IMG/VR virus record: IMGVR_UViG_3300030108_001317
Span: 1 to 55,746 of that record
From: a virus
Length of the DNA stretch: 55,746 bases
Strand: one strand, 5' to 3'
The translations under genes and the position numbers were made by a program. Positions 5,068-19,829 of the stretch are shown here, in pieces; within the stretch, counting starts at the first letter, position 1; each line of letters begins with the position of its first letter. The notes under the pieces were generated by a model. It worked only from the letters and a program-made list of their open reading frames with translations. It was not told the origin of the DNA and ran no database searches.

Positions 5068-5574
5068 TTAAGCGTCAGCAAATGGAGTTACTACAGTTCC
5101 TGAAGCAAGGTTAATACCCTCTACTGCATACTTAGCTGAAGCTATTGCTGTAACTCTAATGATTGTTCCAGCTATTCCGCCTTTAGTAGTACCATTTAAA
5201 GTTATAACATCATTACTAGCACCTGAGAAGAATGTTTTACCTGCTGCATCGCTTTTACCCATATATAATCCACCAACGAACTTATCTGTGCCGTCAGTTT
5301 TAATATCTAAGTCTGTAGCTGCTGTTTCTATTACAAAAGTAAAAGAAGCACCCAAGTTGTTAGTTTGATTAGGGTCATCATCCCTACCCGGAGCAGTTGC
5401 AACAATACTTGGTAAAGTAAATTTACCATCAGCATCATTACAAGTAAGAATCTTACCTGAGTGTGCTGCTACTGTAAGTGTAGTGTCTGCTGTTAAGCTA
5501 ACTACGGTTGCATTACCTGCTGAAATGAAACCAGCTAGTGACCTAACCGGTCCTGAAAAAGTTGATTTTGCCAT
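5068..5574 (-). CDS. Head-associated structural protein
   Basis: A 168-residue Gly/Thr/Ala-rich beta protein (start MAKSTFSGPVRSLAGFISAG). It is the first gene after the capsid terminator at 5658-5690 and so may belong to a separate transcript or depend on read-through. The first 40 residues resemble decoration-like proteins encoded next to capsid genes. Exact role not established. Confidence 0.6.
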   Translation of the reverse strand: MAKSTFSGPVRSLAGFISAGNATVVSLTADTTLTVAAHSGKILTCNDADGKFTLPSIVATAPGRDDDPNQTNNLGASFTFVIETAATDLDIKTDGTDKFVGGLYMGKSDAAGKTFFSGASNDVITLNGTTKGGIAGTIIRVTAIASAKYAVEGINLASGTVVTPFADA

Positions 5575-7782: not shown

Positions 7783-8837
7783 TAAATTTTCTCCTTAATG
7801 AGTTCTTTAGCATATCTTTCTGGACTAATCCCAAGACGCTTTGCGAGAGCGACTTGAGTTGAAGTTAACTGCACTTTGCGGGGTTTGCTACCATTATTGC
7901 GATTAGATGGTGCTACTACCGATTGTGTATTTCTGGGTGTCGCAGTTTCAGCAACTTCGTTGCTTTCTTCAGGTGTTTCCACCCCGAAATAATCAGGGAA
8001 ACGGAGTCGCATACGCTTATCCACTTCCTCATAATACTTATCTGACTGTGGCGATATACCTTCCTTTCTAACTAAGGTTTCATGTATACCATAAGCCAAA
8101 GCAGTCATTTCCTTTTGGTCATCTGACCCGAACCACGAATTGTTTCTCAACCAAGCCACCGCCTTTGGGTCTATTGTTGGCGGTTGTTGCGGTATAGGTT
8201 GTTGTTGTCCAACAGGCTGTTGTGGTGCCTGTTGTGCTCTTGCTTGTTCAACAGCTAAGTGGTCTTCTGCAACTTTTAACTCTGATTGAGCCTTTAACAT
8301 ATCGTTAGTTGCATTAGTTATTTGTTCCGTATCACCTGACTCATGTGCCGCCATGTGATTGCGTTTAGCCTGTTCTAGTTGTGCTTCTGCCTTTGCTTTT
8401 ACTTGTTGCATCAAGGCACTTTCACCACGTTGTACTAATGCAGACAATCTTCTGTTTTCTTCTGCTTGTTGTTTCGCAAAGCTAACAGATTCTTCTCTTA
8501 GTTTTTCTGCGGCTTCTTTTGCACGTCTTTCTTCGTGAAATTCGTATTTTAATTTATTAATACGTTTTTTAACTCGCTCATCAATGCCGTCAATTTCTTG
8601 TTCTATCTCAGCTTGGTCAGCTTGTTTTTGTTCGTCAGAACGAGGTGTTTTTCTGTCATCCTCCGGTCTGTCGTCTATAATTTCTACGTCAAAATCTTCA
8701 GCAGAATCATCAGATACTACAGTATTTTTAATCCCTAAAAACTTCTCTTCTTGCGAATGAGGGCTTTCTTCTACTATATCTTCTACTGGTTCAACTGCTT
8801 CAAATTGCTCTTCTGCAAACTCTTCGTTTGTACTCAT
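7782..8837 (-). CDS. Scaffolding-type protein
   Basis: A 351-residue, highly charged protein. Residues 1-90 are acidic and disordered, about 90-200 form a long predicted coiled coil (KRINKLKYEFHEERRAKEAA onward), a Gln/Pro-rich linker follows, and the C-terminus is short and basic (RKVQLTSTQVALAKRLG). This design, and the position between portal and capsid genes, fits an internal scaffold that exits before packaging. It overlaps the GroES-like gene by four bases. Confidence 0.75.
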   Translation of the reverse strand: MSTNEEFAEEQFEAVEPVEDIVEESPHSQEEKFLGIKNTVVSDDSAEDFDVEIIDDRPEDDRKTPRSDEQKQADQAEIEQEIDGIDERVKKRINKLKYEFHEERRAKEAAEKLREESVSFAKQQAEENRRLSALVQRGESALMQQVKAKAEAQLEQAKRNHMAAHESGDTEQITNATNDMLKAQSELKVAEDHLAVEQARAQQAPQQPVGQQQPIPQQPPTIDPKAVAWLRNNSWFGSDDQKEMTALAYGIHETLVRKEGISPQSDKYYEEVDKRMRLRFPDYFGVETPEESNEVAETATPRNTQSVVAPSNRNNGSKPRKVQLTSTQVALAKRLGISPERYAKELIKEKI

Positions 8838-9223
8838 GCTTTAACCACTCCTCTTGGGTCTTCAACAACGGCTTCAACGCTGTCATCGTTTATTAATCTA
8901 AATTCTTTGCCGTGTACTAAAAATCTAGTTCCGGAATAAGAACGCATTATTATCCAATCACCTTCCTTACAATATGCACCGTTTGGAAAACGTTGCTTAT
9001 CTTGGTAGGCATCAGGACCTAATTTCATTACAAATCCACATATTGAGCCTACAGATTCTCTTTCAACGTAAGATGAGGCTTTTATAATGCCCCCTTCTGT
9101 TTTCTCTTCTGCTTCAGGTAATGCTATTAATATTCGATAACCAGAGGGTTCTGGTAATTGTTTCGCTGTAGGTTCCTTTTTAACTTCAGTTTCAGAACCT
9201 TTTATTTCTTTTGCTGCTTCCAT
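8834..9223 (-). CDS. GroES-like co-chaperonin (Cpn10)
   Basis: A 129-residue protein. After a charged 25-residue extension, residues 27-125 show the Cpn10 layout: PSGYRILIALPEAEEKTEGG is the first strand pair and the start of the mobile loop, then IIKASSYVERESVGSICGFV, and a roof/second-strand part with CKEGDWIIMRSYSGTRF and GKEFRLINDDSVEAVV. Phage GroES homologues (T4 gp31 and relatives) cap host GroEL to fold capsid protein. Its place between portal, scaffold and capsid genes supports that job. The mobile loop differs from a housekeeping GroES, as expected for a phage version. Confidence 0.85.
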   Translation of the reverse strand: MEAAKEIKGSETEVKKEPTAKQLPEPSGYRILIALPEAEEKTEGGIIKASSYVERESVGSICGFVMKLGPDAYQDKQRFPNGAYCKEGDWIIMRSYSGTRFLVHGKEFRLINDDSVEAVVEDPRGVVKA

Positions 9224-9269
9224 ATTTTATTTTAATTGCACAGGTTTAGGACCTGCGACCTTTGCATCG

Positions 9270-9476
9270 TTATGATGTATCTTCTGCTCTCTCTATTAGG
9301 TCAAGCAAATCTCTTTCTGCTAAAGCTAGTCCGGCTACTATACCTGCCATATACCTATAGTCTGAAAAATCTTTACACGCACCACCAGCCATAACGTCTG
9401 TGTGGTCGTTCATTCGTTCCCTAATCATTTTGCGTAACGCATCAGGGAAGTTATCTATTATTATTTCGCTGCTCAT
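9270..9476 (-). CDS. Hypothetical small protein
   Basis: A 68-residue protein with mostly helical content (ALRKMIRERMNDHTDVMAGG and LALAERDLLDLIERAE). Its start overlaps the portal stop by four bases, so it is co-translated with the portal. I do not recognise it. A short inverted repeat (CAGGT/ACCTG, 9241-9255) lies in the 46-bp gap after it. Confidence 0.6.
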   Translation of the reverse strand: MSSEIIIDNFPDALRKMIRERMNDHTDVMAGGACKDFSDYRYMAGIVAGLALAERDLLDLIERAEDTS

Positions 9477-11911
9477 TTATCTTTGTTTAAAACATCAGAT
9501 GCAATCTTTTCACCAATTTTTGCACCTTCTATCTTCTCCTTGCTGCTTATCTCTGCTTCATCCGTAGCAAGCCTTGCAGCTATATTAGCACTTGTTATTC
9601 TTTCTTGTGAAGCTAATCGTTCTAGTTCAGTACCAGCAGTAATTGTAGATTTTTGCAAGTCTGCAATAATCTTCTGAGCATCTGTTTGCATTTTAGCTTT
9701 AACTTGTGCTTCTCTAATATCCAGTTCACGGTCACGTTGCTGAATAACAGGGTCTTTAAGTTTTTCTTGTATTGATTTCTGTCTTTCTTCAGCAATATCT
9801 TTGTGTAGGACTCGCTGTGCCGCTTCAGATACTAACTGAGACAATCGTAATTCGATGTCTTCTGGTAGTGGCTCATCGGGTGGTGGAAGTGGCACACCGA
9901 GTTGTTCTTCTATTTCTTTTCTGTATTGGAAAGCAATATGTTCTGTTACGTGCTCTGTAAATGCTCCTAATATAGCATTAGCATTTTTGCTTTGACCAAT
10001 CATCTTTCTTATTTTCGGGTCATCAGCCATAGCCATATGAGTAGCTATATGTGCTTCGTGGTCTTGATACATGAAAGCTTTTACAGGCTTTTCGTTCAGT
10101 ATATTCATGTTCTCAGATACAGGATTAGTAGGCTCTATATCTTCTTCTAGTGGTACTATGCTTTCCGGTTCACGTATACCTAAAGTCTCAAGCATCTGCC
10201 TATGCAATTCTGCCATGTTATACATCTGAGGTGACTGTTGAGCAAGCTGTAAAGCAGCTTGATACTGCATAATCCTTTGTGCTGTTGTAGAAGCATTAGG
10301 GTCAGATACCGGTATCACGTCAACTTCATCGTCAAAATCGCTAGGAAGCAATTCTTGACCCTCTGTTTCGTATGGATATTCAGTTGGACCAAAATCTCTT
10401 ATAATTCCTGAAAGAATATTCAATTCTTTCTTCATAGAAGCATGAATTCTAGCTTGAACTGACCCCATAACCTTCATAGAACGCTCTAAAATGGCTAAAG
10501 TTGTCCCGACAGGGGCTTGATTGTTCATATCAGCCACTTTCATATCAGCTACAGACGCAAATCTACGTCCTTCTTCTACTAAATTGTCTAATAATTGATA
10601 TAAAACGCCTGAAGGCTCTTTATATGGTAAAAAAGTTATATTATCTCGTATTGCACCGCCCGGAACGTCCACATCTCTGAACTCACCCGGCATAATTGGC
10701 GTGTCATCGCCTTTAATTCGCAGTCCTCTGGACTTTAAACCACCCGGAAGGTTAGAAAGTGTGCCCGCATCTACTAATTGTCTTAGTAAGCTTGTTGCAG
10801 ACTTTGCAATTCCACCGATTAAGTGTATTAAACCAAAACCATAGAACCCTAATCCCGGTAAATATTGGTAATGAACAAAATGTTGTCGAGACATTTTCTG
10901 TTCATCTTGTTCATACCAATTTCTCCTTATAGAAAGGATTTTTCGAGACGAGAAATCAATCGTAACTATGTAAGGTAGTGCTATTCCAGTAGGCATACCG
11001 TCTTTTAAATCAGGAAATTCCTCTAAATCGAGGTCAACCATCATTTCTAACAAAGTATGTCTATTGTCATAGTCATAACTGGTGCTGTCACCGGTTAATT
11101 TATTATATTTTTCCTGTATGTCACTTAAATCTTCTGAAGGTGTAGCTAATTCTATGTTCCTGTAGAAGCCATTTACCTGTAATTTCCTAACTTCGTTAGG
11201 AGTTTTCTTCATAATGTGCGTAGCACGTTCGCAAGTTGTTAGGTCAGCAGCACCATAACTCACTACAAAGTCTTCAGCAGGTACAAACATAGAGCATGGT
11301 CTATTCATGCTAGGGTCAAAGTACACTTTTCTGAAAGCAGAACCCGCTAAAGGCAGATTAAATAGTAATTTTTCTGTCTCTGTACGGTATTCAGTCATTT
11401 TATCCGTCAAAAGATAGTTCAAATAGTCTTTTACACGGGCTGCTTGTTGTTCTTTTTCTCTAGTTATAGTGCCAACGACCTGTGTTCTTACCGGTCCTTT
11501 GGGCGGGAACACCTCAGTTATGGCTTGAGCCTGAAATCTAACTACTGCTTCTGTCAATAATGGGTGGAAAACACCACACGCACCGTCCCAAGGTGTCGTT
11601 CTGTCTTCAATTTTAAGCCCTAATTGGTCTAAACCCTTAATATAAGTCTCTTCCCAATCTGCTCTGGACTCTTTATCACTTAAATAGTTAGAAACTAACT
11701 CAGATGCAAGTTCATCTAAGCTAGAATCATCCATAAATTCAGCAAGGTTGTCGTTAAAATCATCTGTAAAGTCCACAGCATCAGGGTCAAAGTCTATTAG
11801 CAGACCTCCATCCTCTGTTTCTATAGCTACCTCTTCAGGATTAGTGACCAAAATTTCTAATGGACTACTCTCCACTATAGCTTCAGGTGTCTTTAACGGT
11901 TTTTCTGCCAT
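9473..11911 (-). CDS. Portal protein (P22-like)
   Basis: An 812-residue protein. An acidic N-terminal 60 residues leads to RADWEETYIKGLDQLGLKIE and TTPWDGACGVFHPLLTEAVV, typical of P22-type portals of podoviruses. A stem/clip region and a long C-terminal helical part (about 690-812, KDPVIQQRDRELDIREAQVK onward) resembling the P22 barrel follow. Length is close to the 725-800 residues common for this family. It forms the 12-fold ring at the packaging vertex. It is downstream of terL and a small linking gene. Confidence 0.88.
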   Translation of the reverse strand: MAEKPLKTPEAIVESSPLEILVTNPEEVAIETEDGGLLIDFDPDAVDFTDDFNDNLAEFMDDSSLDELASELVSNYLSDKESRADWEETYIKGLDQLGLKIEDRTTPWDGACGVFHPLLTEAVVRFQAQAITEVFPPKGPVRTQVVGTITREKEQQAARVKDYLNYLLTDKMTEYRTETEKLLFNLPLAGSAFRKVYFDPSMNRPCSMFVPAEDFVVSYGAADLTTCERATHIMKKTPNEVRKLQVNGFYRNIELATPSEDLSDIQEKYNKLTGDSTSYDYDNRHTLLEMMVDLDLEEFPDLKDGMPTGIALPYIVTIDFSSRKILSIRRNWYEQDEQKMSRQHFVHYQYLPGLGFYGFGLIHLIGGIAKSATSLLRQLVDAGTLSNLPGGLKSRGLRIKGDDTPIMPGEFRDVDVPGGAIRDNITFLPYKEPSGVLYQLLDNLVEEGRRFASVADMKVADMNNQAPVGTTLAILERSMKVMGSVQARIHASMKKELNILSGIIRDFGPTEYPYETEGQELLPSDFDDEVDVIPVSDPNASTTAQRIMQYQAALQLAQQSPQMYNMAELHRQMLETLGIREPESIVPLEEDIEPTNPVSENMNILNEKPVKAFMYQDHEAHIATHMAMADDPKIRKMIGQSKNANAILGAFTEHVTEHIAFQYRKEIEEQLGVPLPPPDEPLPEDIELRLSQLVSEAAQRVLHKDIAEERQKSIQEKLKDPVIQQRDRELDIREAQVKAKMQTDAQKIIADLQKSTITAGTELERLASQERITSANIAARLATDEAEISSKEKIEGAKIGEKIASDVLNKDK

Positions 11912-12193: not shown

Positions 12194-13690
12194 TTAATAA
12201 TATTCTGCTCTTGTACCAACAAACTCTTCCTCTTCTTCGTCAGAATATAATGGTACAAATCCACCTTGACGGAATCTCAACAACGCTTGTGTTGAGGAAT
12301 CCACCAAGTCATCGTGCTCTCCGCTAGGAAAAGCAGCGAATTCTTCTATGACTTCCTCAGAGAATCTCTTCTCTGGTGCCCATACTATACCTGATGCAAA
12401 CAAATCAGCTACAGCGTTAACTCTTGCAATCTTGTCATTACCTCTACTTGGTGTGTACTCAGACACCGGTATACCCATCTGTCTTAGTTCAAAGATTAAC
12501 GGCATACCAGCAGCTTTACCCTCTACTATAAATGCGTCAGGTTGCCACTCTTTCCAATGTTCAAATGCTTTCTTCTTTAGTTCAGGAAACTCCATCCTGT
12601 CTTTGAAAGCATCTAATAATATTATATGAGGTTCTACAACTCCGGTTCCTTCACTCTCGTTATAAAAGACTCCCCATGTAGTGCAAGCTGAATAGTCTGC
12701 ACGTTGAGTCTTAAGAAAAGCCGTGTCCCAAGATTGTATTATAAATTCGCATTGTGGAGGTTGGTTGTATTCCCAATTCTTCCACCACTCTCTTTTAACA
12801 ATAGCACCCTCTTCTGAAGTAGGGTCTTGTTGATATTGAGCAGACCATTTAGATACCGGTAGTTCTGCTCGTAGTTTTTCTAATTCTTTTATGTCCCAAA
12901 ACTCTTGCCATAGGCTTTTACCGGAAGGCAATATAGCTGGAAACTCTATAACTTCCCAATCATCTACACCGGCTCTACTTTCCTGTGCCTTTAGTATTTG
13001 ACCGGTCAAGTCTCTTTTGTGCCAACGTGTCATAACAATAACGATTGACCCGCCGGGTTGTAAACGCTGTCTTGGTCCTGATGTATAGTATTCGTATACT
13101 CTATCAAATACAGAGGGGTCTCCACTCTGTCCTTCTTGTTCAGAATGCGGGTCGTCTATAATTAAAACATCCGCACCTTTACCAGTAACAGCACCGCCAA
13201 CACCTATCGCAAAGTATTCACCGCCTTTGTTTGTATTCCAACGTCCCGCAGCCTTGGAGTCAGATTGTAAAGCTACGTTAGGAAATACATCTTTAAAATC
13301 TTCAGAGCCAACTAAGTTTCTTACCTTACGACCAAAGCCTACCGCTAATTCCGCCGTATGTGCAATCTGAATGATTTTCTTCTCAGGGTACTTACCTAGA
13401 TACCAAGCCGGTAGTAAATAGGACGCAAACTCCGATTTTGTATGTCTAGGCGGCATATTAATAATTAGCCGTTTTAGTTCACCCCTAGCTACACGGTCAA
13501 ACGCATCAGCCATCTTCGTATGATGATACCCTTCAATAAAGGCAGACCATATATGTTTGACAAAGGGTAAGAAGTTCTCACCGCACTCTTGTCTGTTCTT
13601 AGCTTGTTCGTATTCTTCTAACAGAGATAGAAATTTATTCTGCTCACTAACAGGTAGTTGTTTAATTTTATCTAAGTAAGGATTAGCCAA
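12194..13690 (-). CDS. terL: Terminase large subunit
   Basis: A 498-residue packaging motor. ATPase: Walker A variant MPPRHTKSE (residues 79-87), Walker B VLIIDD (175-180) and coupling motif MTRWHKRDL (220-228). Nuclease: catalytic acids D322 (SWDTAF), E390 (IVEGKAAG) and D460-D461 (GEHDDLVDS). The start is TTG at 13690, with a GGGGG Shine-Dalgarno-like run six bases before it; no in-frame ATG lies upstream. It pairs with the small subunit at 14660-15130, though an HTH gene lies between them. Confidence 0.95.
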   Translation of the reverse strand: MANPYLDKIKQLPVSEQNKFLSLLEEYEQAKNRQECGENFLPFVKHIWSAFIEGYHHTKMADAFDRVARGELKRLIINMPPRHTKSEFASYLLPAWYLGKYPEKKIIQIAHTAELAVGFGRKVRNLVGSEDFKDVFPNVALQSDSKAAGRWNTNKGGEYFAIGVGGAVTGKGADVLIIDDPHSEQEGQSGDPSVFDRVYEYYTSGPRQRLQPGGSIVIVMTRWHKRDLTGQILKAQESRAGVDDWEVIEFPAILPSGKSLWQEFWDIKELEKLRAELPVSKWSAQYQQDPTSEEGAIVKREWWKNWEYNQPPQCEFIIQSWDTAFLKTQRADYSACTTWGVFYNESEGTGVVEPHIILLDAFKDRMEFPELKKKAFEHWKEWQPDAFIVEGKAAGMPLIFELRQMGIPVSEYTPSRGNDKIARVNAVADLFASGIVWAPEKRFSEEVIEEFAAFPSGEHDDLVDSSTQALLRFRQGGFVPLYSDEEEEEFVGTRAEYY

Positions 13691-14624: not shown

Positions 14625-14640
14625 TATTGAACGTTCAATA
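14625..14640. repeat. Palindrome copy 1 (TATTGAACGTTCAATA)
   Basis: Perfect 16-bp dyad, in the gap between terS and the HTH gene. Member of the ten-copy family. Confidence 0.9.
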
Positions 14641-14659: not shown

Positions 14660-15130
14660 CTATTCAGAATGTGGCAAGGGGAGGGTTAGTATTTCTTCCA
14701 GCTTGCTCTCAATCTCATTGGCTACTTCTTCCGGTGTCCTATCTTTCGTGGTTGTCTCTATCCTCTCAATGAATAGTCCTACGTCTGAAGTCTTGCCTAG
14801 CAATTCAAGTGCCCTGATTCTAGCTGATTCGTTATTCGTGGGATTCAATGCTTCCTTCTGTAGCTGTTCTAGTACGAGGTGCCTAAGAGAGAGTGCACTA
14901 GTCTGTGCGTACTCCTCCTTTCTCTTGAATCCTTGCTTTAACCTTTGGGCTATCTTAGGGTTCGATTTTAGTTTGCTGGCTTCAACGTGGATAGCTGAGT
15001 CCTTCATTCCTTTGGCATTGTACGCAGTCCTGTATGCGTCACTTGCTGAATTGCCTTTTAGCAATTCCGCAATGAATCTTTCCTGTTTGCCTGTGAGTGG
15101 ATGTATTTCTTTTACCTTGTCTTTGCTCAT
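14660..15130 (-). CDS. terS: Terminase small subunit
   Basis: A 156-residue protein from ATG at 15130 (MSKDKVKEIHPLTGKQERFI); a longer frame from TTG at 15190 lacks family sequence, so I use the ATG. The segment LLKGNSASDAYRTAYNAKGM and SKLKSNPKIAQRLKQG is the helix-turn-helix of the Terminase_2 family, followed by a helical oligomerisation part. It recognises the packaging site and hands DNA to TerL. It is the last gene on the left arm and faces the structured region at 15.25 kb. Confidence 0.85.
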   Translation of the reverse strand: MSKDKVKEIHPLTGKQERFIAELLKGNSASDAYRTAYNAKGMKDSAIHVEASKLKSNPKIAQRLKQGFKRKEEYAQTSALSLRHLVLEQLQKEALNPTNNESARIRALELLGKTSDVGLFIERIETTTKDRTPEEVANEIESKLEEILTLPLPHSE

Positions 15131-15221
15131 GTAAGAAATTGTAGCTGTCCTACGGACAGTTTGAAATACACCGGTGCGAACAGTCAGCAAACGTTCACAA
15201 AATATTTTTTGTAATTAGGGG

Positions 15222-15250
15222 TTGCACAATGTCACACGTTTTGCTAATAT
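15222..15250 (+). promoter_or_regulatory. Candidate sigma-70 promoter for the structured RNA
   Basis: TTGCAC, a 17-base spacer, then TAATAT preceded by TGC (extended -10). It points into the hairpin-rich region. The expected start (about 15257) would fall inside the proposed closing helix that begins at 15252, so either the start is unusual or an upstream promoter is used. The -35 match is partial. Confidence 0.45.
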
Positions 15251-15606
15251 TCTCTTTGTCAGCGAGAACTGATTGCCCCTTCGGGGCATAACGACCCTTC
15301 GGGGTGCCGGTTCACTACCTAACTGACAGGCTTCTAAGCCTTCTGTCGTGAGACACAAAGAGCAAGGAATCCTAGAGTCCGGAAGACGAGGTAGCAAGGT
15401 ACAAATCGGAAGCCTTGTAAAAGTTGGTGATGCGAAGTTCCTGATACTACCGAGACTAGGTAGTGAAGATGAAAGAAGAACAGTTAACGGTTCAGAGATT
15501 CGGAGAAGGTAAAACAAGGGTCGGACATTTTGGGTCAGCAGACGAAACGCTGATTCGGTTGTATGAAAATCTTAGTATGTGAAGAGAGACACAATAGCTA
15601 ACACGG

Positions 15607-15660
15607 TTGGCAGTCACGGTTTGGTGTGACGTGTTGGCAGTCACGGTTCGGTGTGACGTG
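15607..15660 (+). repeat. Two tandem 27-bp hairpin repeats
   Basis: Copies 15607-15633 and 15634-15660 differ at one base (TTTG versus TTCG, both in the loop). Each holds GTCAC...GTGAC. The loop-only difference fits selection on structure. The sequence GTGTGAC in each is also complementary to GTCACAC at 15231-15237. Confidence 0.85.
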
Positions 15661-15767
15661 ATACGGTTTGGAGCGAACAGACGGAAGTATGACTGATAGG
15701 TTGAGTAGTCGAGGGGCAAGTTACTGCGAAGGTAGCGAGAGAGAAGACGGGCTTGTAATGAGTCCGT

Positions 15768-15803
15768 TTCTTTGTAGGTGTTTTAACCGGCACCTACAAA
15801 GAA
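15768..15803 (+). other. 13-bp hairpin before the early operon
   Basis: TTCTTTGTAGGTG, loop TTTTAACCGG, CACCTACAAAGAA. A perfect stem ending 45 bases before the ATG at 15849. No U-run follows on either strand, so it is not a standard terminator; it may be the 3' end of the structured RNA, a processing site or an RNA-stability element. Confidence 0.8.
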
Positions 15804-15848
15804 GCGAATGTGCTTCAATTAAAATTAATTATTTAGGAGATAATCAAT

Positions 15849-16187
15849 ATGGCGATAACTAAAAAAAATATCGAGTTTGCATTAGAAAGATTAAACGGGT
15901 TGCTAGGTGTACCTGAAGCTTACGAGAAAGACGGGCAAGGTAACATCTTAAGATGTCCGGACGGTTACATGATTCAATGTGAGGGTCATTGTTACTTGCA
16001 AGGTGCTTATGGCAAATTCAAAATTGAGAGAATGTGCAAATATGGTTCGGCAGATGCTACGCATCTTGGTACTAAGTCTGAAGTTTATTATCAAGTGTTG
16101 GCTATGATTGAAGGAATCGAAGCCTATCAACACGCTGTATCTACAAGGGTTGGTGGTGTGAAAATAATTGACAGGAACAGGGGGTAA
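15849..16187 (+). CDS. Hypothetical early protein
   Basis: A 112-residue protein with a good ribosome site (TTAGGAGATAATCAAT before ATG). It has a CPDGYMIQCEGHCYLQGAYG core with three Cys and a Tyr/Gly-rich middle, then a helical end. No family recognised. It is the first gene of the rightward cluster, 45 bases after the 13-bp hairpin. Confidence 0.65.
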   Translation: MAITKKNIEFALERLNGLLGVPEAYEKDGQGNILRCPDGYMIQCEGHCYLQGAYGKFKIERMCKYGSADATHLGTKSEVYYQVLAMIEGIEAYQHAVSTRVGGVKIIDRNRG

Positions 16188-16612: not shown

Positions 16613-17611
16613 ATGCAAACATATATCAAGCCTTCAGAACTGAAAGGCAAGTTAGAAACGTTGATTGGTTTAAATAAACCGACGTTTATTTGGGGGGCTT
16701 CCGGTATCGGTAAGTCAGAGATTATAGCGAAGGTAGCAGAGAAGCTAGACTACAATCTGATTGATGTCAGAGTTTCTTTGTTAGACCCTGTAGACCTGAG
16801 AGGTGTACCTAGTGTTGAGAATGGTATCACTAAATGGAATCCTCCGGTGTTCTTACCACGGGAAGGTGACAAGACTTCTATCTTGTTTTTGGACGAGTTA
16901 CCGCATGGTAGCCCTAGTGTTCAAAATGCTTTGTTTCAGTTGATAAGAGACAGGCAGATAGGCGAGTACAGGTTACCTGATTCGACAATCATTCTTGCCG
17001 CCGGTAACAGAGTATCGGACAGAGTAGGTGCTAACAAGATTAACGGTGCACTTGCTAACAGGTTCGTACACTTACACCTAGAAGCTGATGTTGATGATTT
17101 TTGTCACTACGCATTATCGGAGGGAGACTTTGAGCCAAACATTGTAGCCTTCATCAGATACAGACCGGAGTTACTATTTGACTTCAACAAGGATTCAGTC
17201 GCATGGGCTAGTCCTAGAGCGTGGGAGTCTGTTTCGGATATTGGTAAAGCTAACAAGCAAAACCTTCAAGACCTTGCCCTTGTCGGCGGTTGTGTTGGTG
17301 ATTCTGTTGCGGTTGAGTTTTGTGCATTTATGGGAATGGTTAACAGTCTTCCGGATGTTTCAGAGATTATCAAAAATCCTGAGACTTACGAAGTTTCAGA
17401 AGACCCTTCTGTTTTGTACGCACTTACCGGAGCACTAGCTGTTAGAGCGAATGCTAGTAACTTTGATGCAATCATTACCTACATGACTAGAGAGGAAATG
17501 AGTAATGAGTTTGCGGTTCTTTGTGTCAAAGATGCGGTGACTAGGAATCCACAGTTGACGAAGACTAAAACCTACGTTGACTTTGTTACTAAGTTTGAAG
17601 ATTTAATTTAG
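16613..17611 (+). CDS. MoxR-type AAA+ ATPase
   Basis: A 332-residue AAA+ protein. Walker A GASGIGKS (28-35), Walker B LFLDEL (91-96), sensor 1 asparagine in AAGNRVSD (near 132) and a probable arginine finger in ANRF (150). The pore-side sequence and the LDPVDLRGVPS insert are typical of the MoxR/CbbQ group. MoxR ATPases work with VWA proteins to remodel or activate target complexes. Here the VWA partner is encoded two genes downstream in the same operon, next to a helper-like gene. Confidence 0.88.
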   Translation: MQTYIKPSELKGKLETLIGLNKPTFIWGASGIGKSEIIAKVAEKLDYNLIDVRVSLLDPVDLRGVPSVENGITKWNPPVFLPREGDKTSILFLDELPHGSPSVQNALFQLIRDRQIGEYRLPDSTIILAAGNRVSDRVGANKINGALANRFVHLHLEADVDDFCHYALSEGDFEPNIVAFIRYRPELLFDFNKDSVAWASPRAWESVSDIGKANKQNLQDLALVGGCVGDSVAVEFCAFMGMVNSLPDVSEIIKNPETYEVSEDPSVLYALTGALAVRANASNFDAIITYMTREEMSNEFAVLCVKDAVTRNPQLTKTKTYVDFVTKFEDLI

Positions 17612-17619
17612 GAGTAGTT

Positions 17620-18507
17620 ATGCTATTAAATGAAAAGGCTATCTTGGTTAGCCCAATAATCAAGAAATGGAATCCACGTAAAGTTGACAAGGCTTTACGT
17701 GATGCTGTCGCTAGTGAGTACGGTGTTGATTCTAAGATGTTGAGTACATCTAAGAAATTAGTTGCTCTCAATGAGGGTGTTTTCAAAAGGATAGAGACAG
17801 TAGACAAGAAGATTAGGAATCATTGTTTCTACTCTATCGGTCAAGGGTGCACCGGTTTTTGTGTGCCTTATGACTACAAGGGAAAACATCTTTTGCCTAC
17901 AGAGTTGGAGGGTGCATTCAAGGCAAGATTCAACGAGTACAAAGACGAGAGAGAAAGGCTTGTTAAACAAGTTGTCGATTCTTGGGATGATATTGTTGAA
18001 GGTGCAAAGGCAGAGTTGAAAGACTTATTTGATGCTGAAGACTATCCCACAAAAGAAGAGATAGCTAGTAAGTACGAATGCAGATATGTTCCGGAGTCAC
18101 TACCGGAGCAAGCTTACGTATCTGAAGTTGTAGACCCTAGACACGGTGTTTCAGAGTCGGATGTAGTCGAGGTTCAAAGTAGAACTAAGTCTGATGTTGA
18201 ACTTGCTACTGAGACAGCTACGAGAAACATTAGTGTTCTGTTGACACACTTAACTGACTGTCTCAAGAATGATAAAACTTTCAGAGATAATTCATTCGAC
18301 AAAGTTAAGAATGCTATCGTGACTTTTAGTGCTTGGAACTTCAACAACAATCCGGAACTTGCAGAGGTGAGTGAGATTCTTACTGATGCAGTTTCCTCTA
18401 TTGATAACGCAGATGTGCTTAGAAAAGATTCTACAAAGGTTGATGAATTTGTAGAAGCTTCAGACAAGGCTTCTGATATTTTAAATAACTTGGACGGTGT
18501 AATATGA
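17620..18507 (+). CDS. DUF3150-like protein of the MoxR-VWA cassette
   Basis: A 295-residue mostly helical protein with a coiled-coil middle (EYKDERERLVKQVVDSWDDI) and CTGFCVPYDYKGKHLLP. It is flanked by the AAA+ and VWA genes, 8 bases after the first and overlapping the second by four. Proteins labelled DUF3150 occupy this slot in other phages and bacteria; I base the label on context and general resemblance. It probably acts as an adaptor between ATPase and VWA protein. Confidence 0.6.
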   Translation: MLLNEKAILVSPIIKKWNPRKVDKALRDAVASEYGVDSKMLSTSKKLVALNEGVFKRIETVDKKIRNHCFYSIGQGCTGFCVPYDYKGKHLLPTELEGAFKARFNEYKDERERLVKQVVDSWDDIVEGAKAELKDLFDAEDYPTKEEIASKYECRYVPESLPEQAYVSEVVDPRHGVSESDVVEVQSRTKSDVELATETATRNISVLLTHLTDCLKNDKTFRDNSFDKVKNAIVTFSAWNFNNNPELAEVSEILTDAVSSIDNADVLRKDSTKVDEFVEASDKASDILNNLDGVI

Positions 18508-19829
18508 AAACAGCTAAACAGTTAATGACACAGGCTAGGATAAGGTTGATTGATAAACATCCTTTCTTTGGCAATACAGCTATGAAGCTTAAGTTGATTG
18601 AAGACTCTAGCATTTCGACAATGTGCACAGACGGGAAGGTTATCAAATACAATCCTGAGTTTGTAGAGGATAACATCATGGCTCACAATGTCGGTGTTCT
18701 TGCTCACGAAGTTATGCACGTAACCAACGGGCATCCTCTAAGAAAAGGTAACAGGAATCACAAGCTATTTAACGTGGCTTGTGATTATGCTATCAATCCT
18801 ATTCTTGTAGACGGTGGGTTCATTCTTCCGGACGGTGCATTACTTGATGATGCTTATCACGGCTTGAGTGCTGAAGAGATATACTCTCTTATTCTTGAGC
18901 AGTATGAGCAAGAAGAAGGCGAGTCCGGCGGTGACGGTAGCGGTGAGTCTGACGAGTCCGGTGAGTCCGGTGAGTCCGGTGAGTCCGGTGATTCGGGTGA
19001 TTCGGGTGATTCGGGTGATGATGATTCCGGTGAGTCGGGTGAGTCGGGTGAGTCGGGTGAGTCCGGTGATTCTTTGGATGATTGGATTAATGATAACTAT
19101 GGTAATCAAGCCGGAGAGTTTGAGGAGCAAAAGAACGAGGACGGTTCAAGTCTTAGTGAGTCTGAGGTTAGAGAGCAGTTAGAAGACTTAAAAGTTTCTA
19201 ACGCTCAATCAGAAATGAGGTCAAAGTCGCAAGGCAAAGGCGGTGGCGGTTTTGGTTCTGAGTTGAAGGGTGCGACAGCTAGTGCTGTAGCGTGGGATGA
19301 TGTTCTCTTACCTCTATGTCAAGATGCTTTATCGGACGAGCAGACTTACAACAGACCTAACAGAAGATTTATTGCAGAGGATATGTATATGCCTAGCTAT
19401 GATAAATCAGATATTAAGTGTGCTGTTGTTGGGCTTGATACTTCCGGTTCGGTTGATGACAAGTATCTGAGACTATTCAAAGGTGGGCTTACTAGAATCT
19501 TTGAGGAAGTCGGGTTCGATACAATCTACGTTGTAGATTTTACTGATACGGTTGAGCGAGTCACAGAGTACAAAAGAGGTGACGAGTTTGATATGTCTCA
19601 TAGGTTTTGGGGCGGTACGCATTTCGCTTCTGTTACTGATTGGATAGAGGAGGAGGGTATCAATCCTTCTATGCTTATCTACATGACAGACGGGTTAGGT
19701 CGTGCTCCTATTGAGCCTGACTATCCGGTTGTATGGTGTCTTCCTGAAGCGTACGCAGAGGACGAGCACACGCTTAGATATAGCGGTATAGACCAATATG
19801 GTACTTTGATTCCAATGATAACCGCATAG
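18504..19829 (+). CDS. Metallopeptidase-like/VWA protein (DUF2201 type)
   Basis: A 441-residue protein. Residues 1-135 carry a zincin-like segment with AHEVMHVTNGH (H68-E-x-x-H72). Residues 139-190 are a low-complexity Gly-Glu/Asp-Ser repeat. Residues 305-441 form a VWA domain with a complete MIDAS: DTSGS (312-316), a Thr in GGTHF (372) and the Asp of YMTDG (396). The layout matches the COG3864 group that partners MoxR ATPases, also recalling CobS/CobT and RavA/ViaA pairs. Whether the HExxH is catalytic is unclear. Probably the effector subunit of the cassette. Confidence 0.85.
   Translation: MKTAKQLMTQARIRLIDKHPFFGNTAMKLKLIEDSSISTMCTDGKVIKYNPEFVEDNIMAHNVGVLAHEVMHVTNGHPLRKGNRNHKLFNVACDYAINPILVDGGFILPDGALLDDAYHGLSAEEIYSLILEQYEQEEGESGGDGSGESDESGESGESGESGDSGDSGDSGDDDSGESGESGESGESGDSLDDWINDNYGNQAGEFEEQKNEDGSSLSESEVREQLEDLKVSNAQSEMRSKSQGKGGGGFGSELKGATASAVAWDDVLLPLCQDALSDEQTYNRPNRRFIAEDMYMPSYDKSDIKCAVVGLDTSGSVDDKYLRLFKGGLTRIFEEVGFDTIYVVDFTDTVERVTEYKRGDEFDMSHRFWGGTHFASVTDWIEEEGINPSMLIYMTDGLGRAPIEPDYPVVWCLPEAYAEDEHTLRYSGIDQYGTLIPMITA
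18930..19075 (+). repeat. 9-bp tandem repeats inside the VWA gene
   Basis: Runs of GGTGAGTCC, GGTGAGTCG and GGTGATTCG encode Gly-Glu/Asp-Ser. In-frame slippage here would lengthen or shorten the linker between the peptidase-like and VWA parts without breaking the frame. Confidence 0.85.

Follow-up and report, generated by a model that had tools for sequence, protein, structure and literature searches.

What fills a gap of several hundred bases that separates two diverging gene blocks of a phage and holds no gene? The question is raised by the window, our term for the whole 55,746-base virus record analysed here (IMGVR_UViG_3300030108_001317, positions 1-55,746). Genes for the portal and for the large and small terminase subunits run leftward in a block that ends at about 15.2 kb, a rightward gene block spans 15.85-31.3 kb, and the divergent junction between them (15134-15848) is gene-free. 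Relatives of the large terminase subunit include the Pelagibacter phages HTVC027P and HTVC023P and also phage DSL-LC04, at 54-58% identity. The window thus belongs to an uncultured phage whose relatives are aquatic and for the most part marine. A preliminary description had proposed a large, ornate non-coding RNA at the junction, to be checked by a search for covariation among marine contigs and by an Rfam scan (GOLLD, ROOL, HEARO and others). Covariation was found, above shuffled and slid controls; no Rfam family reached its gathering score anywhere in the window.

The junction and its surroundings

The elements that frame the junction are the following.

14660-15130, minus strand: gene of the terminase small subunit (TerS; PHROG 51, E 9.5e-14), the divergent neighbour of the RNA
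15145-15159, no strand assigned: short inverted repeat CTGTCC-TAC-GGACAG between the TerS start and the predicted RNA promoter (from the sequence and alignment A1)
15835-15839, plus strand: ribosome-binding site AGGAG, conserved among relatives despite a different next gene
15849-16187, plus strand: gene that opens the rightward block, coding for 112 aa and assigned to no family; its place is taken by other genes in L002, L006, L007, L009, L010 and L035

TerS relatives that are 56-96% identical border the same slot in other contigs. Just upstream of TerS, the inverted repeat might possibly serve as a TerS operator or as a hairpin in its 5' UTR; in L008-L010 it is replaced by CTGTAC-GTACAG. A second palindrome, TTGAACGTTCAA, has six perfect intergenic copies in the window (at 14627, 16574, 19921, 21224, 31519 and 40852) and 15 copies when up to two mismatches are allowed, against 3.6 expected. 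It is also found in relatives, and its copies are probably operators of a phage regulator. The early operon nearby encodes an AAA ATPase and a DUF2201 metallopeptidase/VWA-like protein (16613-17611 and 18504-19829), a MoxR-VWA-like pair.

A structured, non-coding RNA on the plus strand

Folded as a single sequence, the region was only moderately unusual in comparison with shuffled sequences (minimum free energy z = -2.96 on the plus strand and -2.64 on the minus strand), and relatives were therefore fetched for an alignment test. They were drawn from viral contigs with the TerS protein and, further, with the pattern of the RNA, for which a segment that is invariant among the homologues (GAGAGACACAAUA) served as a probe. 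The same RNA occupies the same place in the close relatives L002-L004 and L006-L010, and also in L116, L117 and L035 (L112 is the same contig as L035). In all, roughly twelve related contigs of marine phages carry it, always between the leftward TerS gene and the first rightward gene. Its 3' part, the half with the invariant segments, is better conserved, and its 5' part is more variable. Further pattern matches in L119 (genome contigs) and in L114 and L118 (viral) were discarded as chance, the surrounding sequence being without the RNA. The features of the RNA body are listed here, all on the plus strand.

15258-15774, plus: proposed non-coding RNA of about 510 nt, from the expected +1 to the U-rich tract behind hairpin P13, with covariation in a 15-helix model
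15258-15262 with 15323-15327, plus: P1, GUCAG/CUGAC (helix 1), 100% paired, one pair changed on both sides; GUCAUUGA/UCAAUGAC in L004
15266-15313, plus: P2, GAACUG/CGGUUC (helices 2 and 3), enclosing hairpins P2a (15275-15287) and P2b (15294-15305); GAAUUG/CAAUUC and GAGCUA/UAGUUC in relatives
15315-15319 with 15390-15394, plus: P3, CUACC/GGUAG (helix 4), 100% paired; CCGCC/GGUGG in L004, L006 and L007
15395-15417, plus: P5 hairpin, CAAGGU/GCCUUG (helix 6), both sides changed in 3 of 6 pairs; CGUGGG/CCCACG and CUUGGA/UCCAAG in relatives
15446-15464, plus: P6 hairpin, ACUACC/GGUAGU (helix 8), both sides changed in 5 of 6 pairs, no mispair; AUAUCC/GGAUAU and UGCUCC/GGAGCA in relatives
15534-15554, plus: P8 hairpin, GUCAGC/GCUGAU (helix 9), 94% paired, weak in L010 and L035
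15584-15596, plus: the invariant segment, identical across all homologues
15590-15660, plus: P9-P11, including a 27-bp tandem duplication (15606-15632, 15633-15659)
15720-15736, plus: P12 hairpin, GUUACU/GGUAGC (helix 13), kept also in L035; GUUUGU/GCAAGC in L009 and L010

With ten homologues, RNAalifold gave a consensus of -191.6, while alignments with shuffled columns reached -119.8 ± 6.6 (z -10.9, 0/100); compensatory pairs numbered 33 compared with 12.4 ± 3.2 (0/100). We scored alignment A1 (nine sequences) with a hand-defined model whose 15 helices comprise 85 pairs: 97.1% of the model's cells are paired, and in 27 pairs both sides have changed, compared with 13.0 ± 2.0 after shuffling (0/500) and 2-7 with slid partners, counts that are biased in the model's favour in so far as it was partly derived from the same sequences, several of them closely related. 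Chance is nevertheless implausible, because the excess is large and because the RNAalifold null was refolded on the shuffled alignments. P1 and P3 cross each other and form a pseudoknot; each is fully paired in 9/9 sequences and each carries a compensatory change. A long 5'-3' helix offered by RNAalifold (15273-15292/15700-15719) was rejected in favour of P1 and P2, as it is broken in L002, L008-L010 and L035.

The strand can be read from the same model, whose cells hold 75 G-U against 7 A-C on the plus strand. On the opposite strand the G-U pairs would turn into mismatches, hence the plus strand is the RNA. The reverse complement likewise shows covariation, as expected for any covarying alignment. 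In none of the six frames does an open reading frame persist through the homologues, and almost all indels have lengths that are not divisible by three. We are thus close to certain that 15252-15803 encodes a structured, non-coding RNA on the plus strand, and the preliminary description was right about its strand bias and about the lack of a fitting reading frame. The same observations bear on its other proposal, an origin or packaging region as the main explanation, with repeats that are RNA-like only by appearance. A replication origin or packaging start would suit the main divergent junction beside TerS, where GC skew changes sign. However, the skew change follows gene orientation, our repeat search saw no iterons, and paired changes with such a G-U excess show selection on one RNA strand, so that we consider a DNA site very unlikely as the explanation of the region. 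A DNA site close by, for example the inverted repeat at 15145-15159, is possible and compatible with the RNA.

Several details of the first reading had to be redrawn. Its 8-bp long-range closing helix CUCUUUGU/ACAAAGAG is present (15252-15259/15355-15362), but it is shortened or altered in relatives and does not define the RNA; most of its 5' arm falls in the interval from the -10 box (15245-15250) to the expected +1 (about 15258) and is therefore probably not transcribed. The second of two supposed C(UUCG)G hairpins (15294-15305) is genuine, while for the first (15275-15287) a three-base loop, GCCCC-UUC-GGGGC, gives the better pairing; the loop of L002 is AAA at this site. The tandem hairpin repeat is a real 27-bp duplication with a single change, in the loop, but is restricted to the window, L003 and L004. 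The final 13-bp hairpin (15768-15780/15791-15803) is real and shows compensatory changes; it belongs, however, to a separate module and not to the body of the RNA. The pseudoknot of P1 and P3, the terminator-like hairpin P13 and the promoter-like site were absent from that description.

Proposed transcript ends and possible modes of action

The predicted ends of the RNA are marked by the following elements.

15222-15250, plus strand: sigma-70-type promoter-like site TTGCAC-17-TAATAT, read from the sequence and conserved in homologues; -10 box 15245-15250
15747-15774, plus strand: P13, terminator-like hairpin ACGGGCUU/GAGUCCGU (15747-15767, helix 14), followed by the invariant U-rich tract UUUCUUUG
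15768-15816, plus strand: P14, the 13-bp hairpin (helix 15) and a short alternative hairpin GAAGC..GCUUC
about 8140-8230, 9183-9256, 9421-9488, 13282-13363 and 13659-13729 of contig L112: copies of the terminator-like plus long hairpin module

Since an automatic consensus scan did not list the promoter-like site, we treat it as inferred; the +1 predicted from it falls near 15256-15258, where P1 starts. P13 with UUUCUUUG looks like an intrinsic terminator, and P14 shares its U-rich tract. Taken together, the two sites point to an RNA of about 510 nt that runs from 15258 to 15774. L112 has one P13-P14 module after the RNA and four more copies in later gene spacers of the same operon, which marks P13-P14 as a punctuation module (terminator or processing site) outside the RNA body; the window and the other relatives have a single copy.

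The reading we put first is that the RNA is freestanding and acts in trans, to which, judging from sequence comparison, we give a probability of about one half (0.48). Host RNA polymerase would start it early in infection from the promoter-like site, and it would fold from its first nucleotide, P1 beginning at the expected +1. Most transcripts would stop at, or be cut near, P13/P14, and read-through beyond P13 would supply the early operon. The released RNA might then form a compact particle that acts in trans, either by itself, as a multimer or together with protein, as GOLLD and ROOL supposedly do. Covariation above both kinds of control, the G-U strand bias and the absence of coding argue for a freestanding RNA, as do the conservation among members of the promoter-like site (with its 17-nt spacer) and of P13 with its U tract. 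The position of the RNA is fixed while the downstream gene varies between relatives, hence it is not tied to one gene. Its size and pseudoknotted architecture resemble those of GOLLD and ROOL (PMC12286853), and two further, apparently unrelated large RNAs with covariation lie in the same slot of related phages.

Two observations stand against a freestanding RNA and suit a leader as well: the ribosome-binding site directly behind it, with the RNA always the first transcribed element ahead of the rightward operon, and the repetition of the P13-P14 module inside the operon of L112. A cis-acting leader of the early operon is for these reasons a serious rival. The nascent RNA would modify the polymerase (processive antitermination, as with put or EAR) or control attenuation at P13, and in this way let transcription continue through the downstream terminator-like modules; the four further modules in the operon spacers of L112 would call for such antitermination. 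However, this repetition is confined to L035/L112, we recognised no polymerase-binding motif in the RNA, and put and EAR RNAs are far smaller; we rate the leader below the freestanding RNA, as its main rival.

The fixed place beside TerS could also be explained if the RNA belonged to the DNA packaging machinery or regulated it, as a functional counterpart of the phi29 pRNA, and the terminase neighbourhood is indeed kept in at least three sequence groups of RNA. But the RNA shares its direction of transcription with the early genes and points away from TerS, pRNA is far shorter, and the neighbourhood may just reflect the divergent junction, which leaves a packaging role quite improbable. The large size, the pseudoknot and the invariant segments would also suit a self-splicing or otherwise catalytic RNA (intron or ribozyme); yet the location is intergenic, not inside a gene, and no intron or ribozyme family of Rfam matched at E<=10. 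We regard catalysis as highly unlikely.

Other apparent large RNAs in the slot and comparison with known RNAs

Gaps several hundred bases long, divergent from TerS, recur in many of the more distant terminase relatives and sort into sequence groups. In one group (L011-L016 and L037) we counted 38 compensatory pairs against 9.4 ± 2.8 after shuffling (0/60), in another (L048-L059 and L074) 25 against 7.8 ± 2.7 (0/60; four sequences only). From this excess both appear to be structured RNAs too.

L012 5351-5854, minus strand, as an example: second slot RNA (L011-L016, L037), about 450 nt, with a TTGACA-type promoter-like site
L055 652-1188, minus strand, as an example: third slot RNA (L048, L051, L052, L054, L055, L056, L059, L074)

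An nhmmer profile search found no homology between the window RNA and the other slot groups, and the latter had no Rfam match. Searched with blastn against 50,697 phage records, neither the window RNA nor the two other groups had relatives. A covariance model of the 3' core of the window RNA had no match in HTVC027P, HTVC023P, 023Pt_psg01 or DSL-LC04; in the other fetched phage groups it had one 15-bit match only, in L048 (E 0.006-0.05), whose siblings had none. With apparently unrelated structured groups in one place, the large RNA that occupies the slot seems to vary from phage to phage. Tentatively, it might be that this marine phage lineage keeps a dedicated slot divergent from TerS for interchangeable large RNAs, of at least three unrelated classes, with one common job early in infection for which different RNA folds would serve.

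Other small elements were noted in these gaps. The second and third slot RNAs share a small element at their 3' ends (for example L012 about 5270-5330, minus, and L055 about 680-760, minus), GUC-(CUUG AAUUAA CAAG)-CUGANGAG-(stem)-AAGAAAC, that resembles a hammerhead ribozyme of type III apart from two additional A; the hammerhead reading was dropped, as no Rfam match was found even at E<=10. Right before the first gene, leaders of L048-L079 carry a hairpin loop, CUCCAA or CCUCCA, that is complementary to the next ribosome-binding site UUGGAGG, which suggests translational control. The divergent gap of the isolated pelagiphage HTVC027P contains a Flavobacterium-1 RNA of Rfam (L028 4271-4391, minus, 90 bits).

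To our knowledge, very large RNAs of bacteria and phages have so far been sorted into just a few classes. The present new one, with a pseudoknotted model that covariation supports, with proposed ends and with a constant place by terminase and early operon, is an object that can be tested. As related phages fill this slot with other large RNAs that appear unrelated, such RNAs may be usual, not exceptional, in the infections of marine phages.

How does the RNA compare with known ones? Membership in GOLLD or ROOL, which the preliminary description had considered, found no support: with Rfam 15 at E<=10, neither the window RNA nor its divergent homologue L010 matched GOLLD, ROOL, HEARO, OLE, or any intron or ribozyme, and the matches obtained were eukaryotic miRNA, snoRNA and lncRNA families only, by chance and far under gathering scores. 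The put and EAR antiterminator RNAs (about 75-120 nt) likewise open an operon as structured elements, and terminator-like modules follow downstream in L112; the window RNA is far larger, its leader role putative, and it has no Rfam match. The pRNA of phi29, a part of the packaging motor of about 120-174 nt, is also a phage RNA, and the window RNA adjoins packaging genes. In contrast to the much smaller pRNA, however, it is transcribed with early genes, and Rfam gave no match.

GOLLD is an RNA of phages and prophages, often longer than 800 nt, whose homo-oligomeric cage is a 14-mer. The window RNA is also large, intricate, phage-encoded and non-coding, and in both the 3' part is the better conserved and the 5' part varies more. 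It differs in being shorter, in having no Rfam match, in its link to TerS and the early operon, and in having no tRNA nearby, ARAGORN having found no tRNA genes in the whole 55.7-kb window. For GOLLD and ROOL, a location near tRNA islands is frequent; both form homo-oligomeric cages of unknown function, and one ROOL example measures 659 nt (PMC12286853). Like ROOL, the window RNA is pseudoknotted, phage-encoded and of similar length; unlike ROOL, it has neither an Rfam match nor a tRNA island. With several hundred nucleotides, a conserved, multi-helix, pseudoknotted fold and no coding capacity, this phage-encoded RNA falls into the broad kind of large ornate phage non-coding RNAs. Within it the RNA is a previously undescribed class in no Rfam family, and in our preferred reading it may be an analogue of GOLLD and ROOL.
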